Assembly: GCA_027490215.1 (NCBI GenBank)
Contig: JAIXYO010000027.1
Coordinates: forward strand, 1-64,000
Reading direction: 5' to 3'
Length of the DNA stretch: 64,000 nt
DNA from: Rubrivivax sp.
Lineage (GTDB): Bacteria > Pseudomonadota > Gammaproteobacteria > Burkholderiales > Burkholderiaceae_C
This document shows positions 41,575 through 46,435 of this stretch, one piece after another (within the stretch, counting starts at the first letter, position 1; every line of letters begins with the position of its first letter). The notes beneath the pieces are model-generated. The model searched no databases. It was not told the origin of the DNA and saw nothing but the letters and a program-made list of their open reading frames with translations. Both the position numbers and the translations under genes were made by a program.

Positions 41575-41892
41575 GTGGAGATTCCAAACAGCGGATCGGC
41601 CTGTCGCTCGCATCGCGAGCGCCAGTCGCAGGCAGAGGGGTGTGAGGGGCGCAATAAAAACGCGGGCCCGGTCAGGATGACATCAGCGAGGCGACTGGTT
41701 TCCGCGCTGGTTGCGTCGAGTCTAACGGGTTATCCCTGATCTCTGAGCTGATCAGAAGGGCAAATGAGGTGCAAACCTCGACCAACGACAATATGCGTTT
41801 CCAGTGCGATGGCAACCTCCGCGGTCCGTCCGTCGCCCGAAGCGCCTTCGGCGCCCAACAACGCTCGTCACTCACTGAATTCAAGGCAGCCC
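41575..41892. other. Intergenic region between rhlE and the ettA leader
   Basis: These 318 bp contain a hairpin at 41605-41621 (CGCTCG/CGAGCG) in the rhlE leader and a second at 41842-41854 (GCGCC-TTC-GGCGC) on the ettA side. Long rhlE leaders can be regulatory, but no known RNA motif is recognisable. Promoters for both genes must lie here; I cannot fix them. Confidence 0.5.
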
Positions 41893-41969
41893 ATGGCCCA
41901 GTACGTCTTAGCGAAACAACTGCCCGCCTGCGGCGGCCTCCACTCACTTCGTTCACGGAGGGCCCTGTA

Positions 41970-41970
<1 letters not shown>
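41893..41970 (+). CDS. Leader mini-ORF that copies the EttA N-terminus
   Basis: A 25-codon frame begins MAQYVLAKQ, ends SRRAL, and its TAA shares one base with the ettA ATG (TAATG). Its first five residues equal those of EttA (MAQYV), and the codons differ only at third positions (GCC/GCT, TAC/TAT, GTC/GTT). AAGG precedes its ATG. The ribosome site of ettA (GGAGGG) lies inside it. It could be a reinitiation leader, or a duplicated ettA start left by insertion of a short GC-rich element (arms GGCCTCC / GGAGGGCC). The two starts are 77 bp apart and thus out of frame with each other. Confidence 0.55.
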
Positions 41971-43630
<1,660 letters not shown>

Positions 43631-43634
<4 letters not shown>

Positions 43635-46435
43635 GTGCAGCGATACCGGCTGTGAGGTCTGTGCTGCTGCTCAAGCTCGCGGTCCCTGCCAGCGCCTTGC
43701 TGCTGGTGGCTTGCGCGGCCGTGCCGCCGTCACCCACAGCGGTGTCTGCTGCGGTATCGCCGTTCGGTGCCGCTGCGCCCGTCACCGCAGGCGCTGCTGC
43801 CACTGGTCCTGCTGGTGCAACGGCGCGTCCTGTGGCAGCGCCAGGTGCCGCGCTGCCAGCCGCCACGGCCCCGGGCGCGCCGCGTCCGTTTGCCGAAGTG
43901 ATCAAGGACGCCAAGGAGATGAGCGGCCTGTTCACGCTGTGGCAGAACGACGAGAAGGTCTGGCTTGAGTTGAAGCCGTCCGACTTCAATCAGCCTTTGT
44001 TCCTGTCGCCCAAGCTGAAGACGGGCATCGGCGAGCCCCGTTTCTTCGGCGGCTTGATGGGCGACGAACTGGTTATCGAGTTCCGCCGCATCTATAACGT
44101 GGTGCAGATGGTCGCGCGCAACACCGAATACGTCGCTGCGCCGAAGACGCCGACCGGCCGCGCGGTTGAGGCGGCTTTCTCGCCCAGCCTGCTGTCGGCC
44201 ACGCCGGTGGCGAGCCTGCCGCATCCCGATCGGAAGTCGGTGCTGGTGGAAGCCAACGCGCTGTTCGTCAACGACATGATGGGCATCGCGCAGGGTTTGC
44301 AGCGCCAGTATCGGCAGGGCTATGCGCTGGACGGTCGCAACTCCGTGATCACCGAAGTGCGCTCCACCGACGACCTGCTGGTGCTGGAGGTGCTGAGCCA
44401 TTACGCCACTGGCACGATCGCGCTGCCGAGCTCTGGCGCCACGCCACCCGGGGCGCCGCAACCGTCACAGCCGCAAACGGTGCCCGACCCGCGCAGCGTG
44501 TTCATGACGCTGCACTACTCGCTGGCGAAACTGCCCGAACAGGTGATGGCGCCGCGCCAGGCCGATGGTCGAGTCGGCTACTTCACCAGCAACCGCTCCG
44601 ACTTCAGCGACGACTTGCCTCGCTCGCCCCGCCAGCGATTCGTGAACCGTTGGCGGCTTGAAAAATCAGACCCTGCAGCCGAGCTGTCGCCACCGGTCAA
44701 GCCCATCACCTACTGGCTCGACCGCACCATCCCCGAAAAGTACCGCGCCTCGATCACCGCGGGCGTCCTCGAATGGAACAAGGCGTTCGAGAAGATCGGC
44801 TTCAAGGACGCGATCCGTGTCGAGGTGCAGCCTGAAGACGCGCCCTGGGACACGCTGGACTTCGGCCGCAACTCGGTGCGCTGGATGACCAATTCCAACC
44901 CGGCGTTCGGCGCCATCGGCCCGAGCCATGTCGATCCGCGTTCGGGCGAGATCCTTGATGCCGACATCGGCATCGAAAGCCTGTCATCACGCAGCCTGCG
45001 CGCGCTGCGATCCCAGGTGCTCGCGTCGTCACCCGCCGGCGCGTCGTCCGACCTGCCGCCTGAACTGGCCGCGCGTGGCATGCGGGCGCAAAGCTGGTGC
45101 GCCTACGCCGACCAGGCCGCCGAGCAACTGGGCTATGCGCTCGATGTGCTCGAAGCCCGCGGTGACATCGCGCCGGACAGCCCCGAAGCCGAGGCTTTCG
45201 TGCAGGGCTACATGAAGGACGTGACGATGCACGAGGTCGGCCACACGCTGGGCCTGCGTCACAACTTCCGCTCCTCGCGGGTGTACACCGAAGCGCAGCT
45301 GGCCGACCCGGCATTCACCGCCAAGCACGGCATCAGCGGCTCGGTGATGGAGTACGCCGCGCTGAATCTGGCGGCGCCCGGCGTACCTCTGCCCAAGCAG
45401 GGCACCGTGTTCAACGCGACCATCGGGCCCTACGACTACTGGGCGATCGAGTACGCCTACCGCCCGCTGCCGTCGGATCAGGAGACCAGCGAGCTGGCCA
45501 AGATCGCCGCGCGCAGCGCCGAGCCACTGCTGGCCTTCGGTACCGACGAAGACAACTTCCTCGGTGTCGACCCGGAGACGCTGCATTTCGACCTTGGCGC
45601 TGATGTGATCGCCTTCGCGCGCAAGCGCATCACGATCGCGCGCGACTTGCTGTCTCGCCAGGAGGCGCGCACCCTGCCAGCCGACCAGGACTACGCAGTG
45701 CTGCGCCGTTCGGTCACCTATGCGTTGCGCGACATGGGCCGTGCGGCCGGTGTGCTGACGCGGCAGATCGGCGGCGTGCGCACGCTGCGCGACCATGCGG
45801 GCAGCGGTCGCGACCCGTTGTCGCCGAAGCCGGCGGCCGACCAGCGTGCCGCGCTCGACCTGCTGGCGCGCGGCTTCCTGTCGGCCGACAGCTTCCGCAT
45901 TTCGCCGGCGCTGCAGCGCAAGCTGGCGGTTGATTTCCTCGAGCGCGGCGATGCTGCGTTGCGCGGCGACGGCACTCTGGCCACTGCGCTGGTCACCGAT
46001 TTCTCGCTGGCCTCGCTGGTGATCGAGCTGCAGCGCAATGTGCTGGGCAACCTGCTGAGCGACAGCGTATCGGTACGCCTGCTCGACAGCGAAGACAAGC
46101 TGCCGAAAGACGCGCTGCGGCTCTCCGAGCTGTATCGCAGGTTGAACGATGCGGTGTGGAGCGAGCTGGGGCAATCGGGCGACATCCCGTCGCTGCGCCG
46201 CGAACTGCAGCGCGACTATGTGACGCGCATTTCCAACCAGTTGCTGCGCCCTGGCGCACTGAGCCGTGCCGACGCACGCAGCCTGGTTCGCGCGCAGGCG
46301 CAGACGCTGCTGAGCCGGCTGAGCACCGCGGCCAAGCGCCCCGGCCTGAGTGCCGAAGCGCAGGCGCACCTGCAAGACAGTGCCGACACCTTGCAACAGG
46401 CACTGACCGCCAAGCTCACGCGCACGGGGGCGTGA
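43631..46435 (+). CDS. Zinc-dependent metalloprotease lipoprotein (DUF5117/DUF4953 type)
   Basis: A 934-residue exported protease. The signal peptide ends in a lipobox, LLLVAC, followed by a Pro/Ala/Thr-rich linker of about 65 residues. The zinc site is MHEVGHTLGLRHNF, an HExxHxxGxxH metzincin-type motif at about 540. Segments such as YWLDRTIPEKYRASITAGVL and TLDFGRNSVRWM are typical of the large bacterial family with DUF5117 and DUF4953 regions. It should sit in the outer membrane or periplasm and degrade misfolded or foreign protein. The start overlaps the ettA stop (ATGA), an odd partner for a translation factor. Confidence 0.87.

Follow-up and report, generated by a model that had tools for sequence, protein, structure and literature searches.

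Genomic islands specific for dusA insert at the 5′ end of their target gene with imperfect direct repeats, supply the gene with a new 5′ end and leave the old one on the far side; they also carry an integrase gene (PMC4482086). The unit described here, which lies at the start of ettA, resembles these islands in its position, its repeats, its replacement gene start and the far-side location of the old start, but it measures only 77–84 bp and encodes no mobility protein. Coupled leader ORFs, including the iraD leader, consist of a short upstream ORF or gene whose stop overlaps the start of the next gene (PMC6728339, PMC5574718). The same arrangement is found at ettA, where the Shine-Dalgarno (SD) sequence and start are predicted to lie in a structure openable by leader translation; the ettA leader differs in sharing the first five residues of its gene, because the leader start is apparently the former start of that gene, and in occurring in scattered strains. 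In IS30-type insertion, the target resembles the element's own end and units may stand in tandem (PMC9333248), and both features recur at ettA, although the ettA unit lacks a transposase, has no other copies that we have seen and occupies one gene only. Finally, the E. coli leader mgtL is controlled by EttA (PMC11282234) and likewise brings together a leader peptide and EttA, but the leaders created by the ettA insert have no acidic residues. Among the papers listed for EttA with leader peptides or upstream ORFs, no title or abstract opening describes such an insert.

Miniature inverted-repeat elements (MITEs) and the small palindromic repeats of bacteria share with the ettA unit a tiny size, a foldback with inverted ends and the absence of coding capacity for mobility, but the ettA unit has one site per genome scanned, a fixed codon and a recoded gene start. 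To our knowledge, no gene-targeting island as small as the ettA insert has been described, the insert being far smaller. If our reading is correct, a mobile unit can repeatedly capture the start of a conserved gene and leave that gene intact, and the genomes in which the unit is present, absent, decayed or in tandem would form a natural set for testing the effect of coupling on the dose of a translation factor; the same set would inform on the movement of very short DNA tracts between genera.

Results

The window (the whole 64,000-nt stretch of Rubrivivax sp. DNA that was analysed) contains an ettA gene whose protein has a Rhizobacter MAG as its nearest named record. A preliminary description had drawn attention to two starts 77 bp apart that both encode MAQYV with third-position differences only, to an upstream frame closing as TAATG on ettA and to a GC-rich dyad between the copies, and each of these is found as described. 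The starts are ATGGCCCAGTACGTCTTA at 41893 and ATGGCTCAGTATGTTTTC at 41970, differing over codons 1–5 at nucleotides 6, 12 and 15 only; the upstream frame ends with TAA at 41968–41970, overlapping the ettA ATG; and the dyad, GGCCTCC/GGAGGGCC, includes an SD-like GGAGGG (41957–41962). When the 367 in-frame ATG candidates of the window were compared (ATGs from the first third of each frame of at least 100 aa), only the ettA start had its first five residues repeated within 200 bp upstream, so chance is not a fair explanation of the repeated MAQYV. Before copy 1, the frame of the leader continues open as far as an ATG at 41764. The features of the locus, as we read them, are as follows.

41893..41909, + strand: copy 1, ATGGCCCAGTACGTCTT, the putative original ettA start and present leader start (identical to relatives G006 and G004)
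41893..41970, + strand: leader ORF, MAQYVLAKQLPACGGLHSLRSRRAL followed by a TAA stop that overlaps the ettA ATG (from the frame)
41910-41911: 2-nt linker before the inserted unit
41912..41987, + strand: inserted unit as inferred, a foldback CGAAAC...GTTTTC (absent from the closest relatives)
41912..41924, + strand: left arm, CGAAACAACTGCC, predicted to pair with copy 2 (duplex energies)
41924..41936, + strand: hairpin 1, CCGCC-TGC-GGCGG (compensatory C-G to G-C change)
41937..41961, + strand: hairpin 2, CCTCC...GGAGG, containing the SD-like GGAGGG of ettA at 41957-41962 (covarying stem)
41970..41987, + strand: copy 2, ATGGCTCAGTATGTTTTC, recoded ettA codons 1–6, apparently insert-borne (comparison with G006)
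41970..43634, + strand: ettA (NCBIfam NF008775 (EttA), E = 3.4e-296)

No Rfam family matched the window at gathering score, and the region 41600–42300 gave two unrelated sub-threshold snoRNA matches (E up to 10), neither of them on the leader. A 969-residue frame at 43526–46435 (+) overlaps the end of ettA; it has no NCBIfam match, and from its HEVGHTLGLRHN motif, noticed by eye, we take it to resemble a secreted metalloprotease.

In two insert-free relatives, G006 (the closest one, 97–99% identical around the site) and G004, the same upstream flank runs directly into ATGGCCCAGTACGTCTTCACC. The window has this common flank and the same first 17 nt, followed by ∼60 nt of unrelated sequence and then the second start, an order that identifies the window leader as the product of an insert rather than an inherited leader. 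Copies 1 and 2 were compared with the ettA starts of insert-free relatives for 10 of the 11 carriers of intact units (all but G097). Against G006, the window differs at 0 of 17 positions in copy 1, at 3 of 18 in copy 2 and, over the 282 nt of ettA that follow, at 8; copy 1 is also identical to the start in G004 (0/17), where the upstream flank is the same. The corresponding figures are 0/17, 4/18 and 8/282 for G005 against G002, and 1/17, 3/18 and 14/282 for G011 against its nearest relative. G174 differs from its sisters at 1/17 and 4/18, with a native Ser codon right after nt 18, and copy 2 of G323 has just a small excess (2/18 versus 21–25/282). Five of the six closest comparisons (the window, G005, G011, G174 and G323) thus have 0–1/17 differences in copy 1 and 2–4/18 in copy 2, the sixth, G823, having 2/17 and 3/18; in the more distant comparisons (G823, G144, G831, G824 and REEB217), copy 1 also differs from the relatives (2–6/17). 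The closest pairs point to the upstream copy as the native ettA start and to the downstream copy as an arrival with the insert, which would carry its own recoded codons 1–6 and nothing beyond, the recoding ending at about nt 18 of ettA.

The differences between the copies would be silent because both encoded the EttA N-terminus, one at this locus and the other in the insert's past, and the resemblance of the leader to EttA would follow from copy 1 having been the ettA start before the insertion. The insert-free genomes nearest to G005 and to G174 have TTT as codon 6, a state that neither copy has; this favours gain over loss, although a later substitution is possible. Where the preliminary description had spoken of a 60-bp insert, the ∼60 bp of unique sequence stands, but the recoded 17–18 nt also belongs to the insert, with which the second copy would have come. 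Its argument that target duplication could not account for the silent changes holds: a simple target-site duplication was rejected, since the recoding of copy 2 consists of changes shared by different genera.

Altogether, 12 intact units in 11 genomes, one unit cut by a contig end (G007) and one decayed unit (G001) were found over 13 Burkholderiales genomes, every one of them at the same place in ettA. Twelve of the 13 carriers share the window's family; the other carrier is a Burkholderiales MAG, L026 (REEB217), whose family is unstated. Matches at E≤0.001 were obtained in 4 of 15 genomes of the window's own genus, the decayed copy in G001 making a fifth. A draw of 399 genomes from the family gave eight matches, five at ettA (G000, G097, G144, G174 and G323) and three short chance matches. 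G174 is the only carrier among the 24 of 26 genomes of genus g31 in which the ettA start was read, and genus g28 has four carriers (G323, G823, G824 and G831) in 15 genomes, these being the 15 of 21 in which the ettA start was read. The best 80 ettA records of genome contigs included two carriers (L003 and L026), one further record (L044) having just 28 nt upstream. A 399-genome draw from the order, under strict filters and with 13 candidates scored per genome, returned the window's own copy only. In a 369-genome draw from the class there were 31 matches besides the window's, with query ranges covering the ettA start only, except in G983 (39–86); the upstream sequence of 19 of the 31, including G983, contained no insert.

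Two of the carriers stand apart. In G097 (L116), two differing units lie in tandem upstream of ettA, giving three successive starts (MAQHV, MAQYV and MAQYV). In G001 (L093), decay of the insert has cost copy 1 its ATG and disrupted several base pairs of the fold, and the letters just before the ettA start are now AAGG.

Ten genomes (G000, G001, G005, G006, G007, G011, G097, G144, G174 and G323) were scanned for further copies with a covariance model, the 150 best candidates being scored in each; all nine matches at E<1e-3 were at ettA, and no convincing copy was found away from it. A dispersed genomic repeat is ruled out by the single match in the window's own genome. The preliminary description had linked a neutral duplication to relatives without the upstream copy and to an insert that is a common repeat; the first is seen in close relatives, but the insert, occurring once in its own genome, is no common repeat. 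A left-end pattern searched in the 399 family genomes gave four matches, all short units at ettA, and no longer form of the insert, the pattern missing the known carrier G144, whose left junction has extra letters.

The phages and plasmids searched contained no match to the insert. Eight viral contigs match the left-end pattern, which is short, but in none of them does the sequence that follows resemble the insert, and the covariance model scored at most 17.6 bits on them versus 70–88 for the intact units scanned, some of which had been used to build the model. The right-end pattern had no match in viral contigs. As far as we searched, there was no phage, plasmid or viral source.

The distribution was examined on a quick IQ-TREE tree of ettA, 42 of whose 144 inner branches are weak. 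Its input was 149 loci with the ettA start found and at least 480 nt, of which 147 rows were left after duplicate removal; L003, which has the same sequence as L084, was omitted; repeat loci and loci numbered 121–158 and 204 or higher are not in the tree, and its rows lean towards genera picked for having carriers. The 13 carriers, counting the contig-cut G007 and the decayed G001, which are outside the 12-row alignment, require 13 changes (mean for random labels, 12.6), and the starred branches alone force at least 12. In this sample, therefore, the insert was not inherited as a clade, with loss by deletion between the repeats possible in places.

When aligned, the 12 intact units fold as a three-way junction with compensatory changes. 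In this fold, 95.0% of 300 cells are paired and 17 cells are changed on both sides, compared with 4.2 in shuffles (17 was reached by 0 of 500) and 2–5 with the partners slid; by another covariation measure, further pair types, the value was reached by 43 of 500 shuffles. Hairpin 1 has a compensatory C-G to G-C flip in 2 of the 12 units. Hairpin 2, which contains the SD-like GGAGGG, has both-side changes at four of its five stem pairs and 90.0% of its cells paired. The outer stem, one side of which is also coding, is imperfect, with 10 pairs and 94.2% of cells paired; in G831, a CAG to CAA change in copy 2 is matched by an ACTG to ATTG change in the left arm. Taken singly, the window's own sequence has a fold whose stability does not exceed that of its dinucleotide-shuffled versions (z = −0.50, −0.10 and +0.24).

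The predicted duplex of the window's left arm with copy 2 has an energy of −8.2 kcal/mol, versus −4.1 with copy 1, and only 4 of 141 native-start rows (49 distinct) pair with that arm as well as copy 2 does. For 11 of the 12 units, the duplex of arm and copy 2 lies between −7.3 and −11.4 kcal/mol; native starts average about −4 against these 11 arms, as does copy 1, except in the unit G097b, where copy 1 is the right end of the preceding unit and pairs at −9.1. In these 11 units, copy 2 pairs with the left arm better than at least 137 of the 141 native-start rows (49 distinct); in the remaining unit, G824, left-arm pairing is lost (−5.0) and 103 of 141 native rows do as well. The combination of CAG and GTT is found in 10 of 12 copy-2 sequences versus 13 of 103 native starts, the exceptions being G824 (GTG) and G831 (CAA). 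The silent differences in copy 2 are thus attributable to the pairing of the left arm with the recoded start. The linker measures 2 nt in 10 of the 12 units.

In all 12 intact units, the leader stop lies at −1, 0 or +2 nt from the ettA ATG, while the stop codon and spacing vary (TAATG, TGAATG and TAACCATG), and the leader has 25–27 codons (25 in the window). An open frame is weak as evidence, frame +2 being open in 12 of 12 units and frame +1 in 8 of 12. The predicted cost of opening the ettA initiation region averages 17.3 kcal/mol in 11 units (10.4–24.5), compared with 8.6 (maximum 18.1) in 119 insert-free genes (p = 1.9e-7), and that of the leader start is similar to native (mean 10.0; p = 0.27); the outliers are the ettA start of G097b, which opens at only 10.4 kcal/mol, and the leader start of G005, which costs 17.0. 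Cutting the leader away leaves a cost of 7.9–15.5 kcal/mol for the ettA start region, so that opening is only partly relieved.

The residues of the leader after codon 6 are weakly conserved. Over codons 7–25 of the 10 leaders of equal length, variability at the three codon positions is 0.227, 0.219 and 0.303, and because these values are almost even, the leader peptide itself seems unimportant; the case for conservation as a peptide is weak, and two of the 12 leaders have drifted from MAQYV to MAQHV and MAHHV. Both copies look translatable, as the preliminary description had supposed, the dyad to which it pointed does matter, and coupling of the leader to ettA is likely: with its start buried in the predicted fold, ettA would probably depend for its translation on coupling to the leader of 25–27 codons.

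Discussion

The best joint explanation of these observations, and one that we consider reasonably probable, is that an insert of ∼77 bp has been gained separately in many lineages at ettA codon 6, making a coupled leader. The insert would bring a foldback, its own SD sequence and recoded ettA codons 1–6 that restore the N-terminus of the protein, and the old ettA start would come to open a 25-codon leader that stops at the new one. Within the transcript, pairing of the left arm with the recoded start region and sequestration of the SD sequence by hairpin 2 would close ettA to free ribosomes; a ribosome that starts at the old site and translates the leader would melt the fold, and termination-reinitiation at TAATG would allow ettA to be translated. 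The sequences themselves show the insertion and the one site known for it, as well as its scattered distribution, the conservation of the fold and the frame; coupled translation and any benefit to the host are what we infer. The device is dispensable, since the insert in G001 has decayed with loss of the copy-1 ATG. As a tentative description, the unit may be a gene-specific 77-bp micro-element that homes across genera to one codon of ettA, a housekeeping gene, with a recoded start by which the protein stays intact and a folded leader that would subject the translation factor EttA to coupled translation.

Two routes of spread, which we regard as about equally likely, lie within this explanation. 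By the first, which is plausible enough to be entertained but short of probable, the insert spreads as an allele of ettA: DNA from a foreign lineage, taken up for example by natural transformation, would recombine at two 17-bp stretches that match any ettA start, so that no dedicated enzyme would be necessary and the insert may be neutral. Allele exchange predicts a single site, as was seen in the 10 genomes scanned; the failure of the left-end pattern to reveal a longer form also favours it, restriction to one gene and the lack of an enzyme in the unit fit short-tract exchange, and transfers of under 100 bp by natural transformation are reported (PMC13344027). However, the closest pairs have no donor tract in ettA past nt 18, though donors should match well there: the window next departs from G006 at nt 54, with a letter found in no other of the 17 sequences compared. 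The native Ser codon right after nt 18 in G174 likewise makes the right end look fixed, and the upstream flanks differ between genera, leaving ∼17 nt of homology on that side.

By the second route, which taken by itself we would call somewhat unlikely, the unit is a MITE-like foldback moved in trans by a putative transposase or recombinase to which the ettA start would look like the right end of the element, in the manner of IS30. The ends of the unit, the left arm and copy 2, form imperfect inverted repeats, one side of which is also coding, and the target resembles the right end, with the 2-nt linker in 10 of 12 units. The tandem pair in G097 and the right end, which looks fixed, also recall IS30-type targeting, and IS30 can insert beside its inverted repeats (PMC9333248), but that tandem could be a local duplication. 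Against this route, no convincing copy was present elsewhere in the 10 genomes scanned, the left-end pattern in 399 family genomes gave short ettA units only (missing G144), and a phage or plasmid match was absent.

Vertical inheritance of an ancestral ettA leader, lost repeatedly by deletion between the two direct repeats, is in our view very unlikely. Deletion between the 17-bp repeats would restore a clean gene, and G001 provides a decayed copy; against this, the 13 carriers require 13 changes with no clustering, neither copy contains the TTT that stands at codon 6 in the insert-free genomes closest to G005 and G174, and the leader was seen at ettA in only 5 of the 399 genomes of the family draw. 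An integron attC cassette was also considered. In attC sites, which are defined in part by an R-box consensus, crossover occurs at the G|TT of the R′ box. This misfits the ettA unit, in which insert-derived letters run on to nt 15–18, and an attC cassette was rejected.

Least probable of all is the proposal of the preliminary description that EttA controls itself by sensing the energy state at a leader that mimics the EttA N-terminus: although leader and EttA have MAQYV in common and E. coli EttA acts via a leader peptide at mgtA (PMC11282234), the mimicry is already accounted for by the insertion, the leader residues are weakly conserved, most relatives have no leader, and none of the 12 leaders contains an acidic residue (D/E), whereas EttA-dependent sequences in E. 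coli require early acidic residues (same source).

Apart from the insert gained at codon 6, the explanation that we favour for the window, other structures were noted upstream of ettA. A Roseateles MAG (L020, 1447–1477) and another Burkholderiales genome (L037, 1453–1473) have, immediately before the ettA start, a GC hairpin with a run of T residues after it; it resembles a terminator and could be an attenuator, and similar GC-rich repeats were seen by eye upstream of ettA in L022, L027 and L032. Also by eye, a CTCGC...GCGAG palindrome was found a few bases before ettA in two Aquabacterium MAGs and another Burkholderiales genome (L008, L016 and L019), and Ramlibacter monticola (L079) was seen to have a long inverted repeat, of the type GCAGAGGACGCAGAAGAAC, in the 180 bases that precede ettA.
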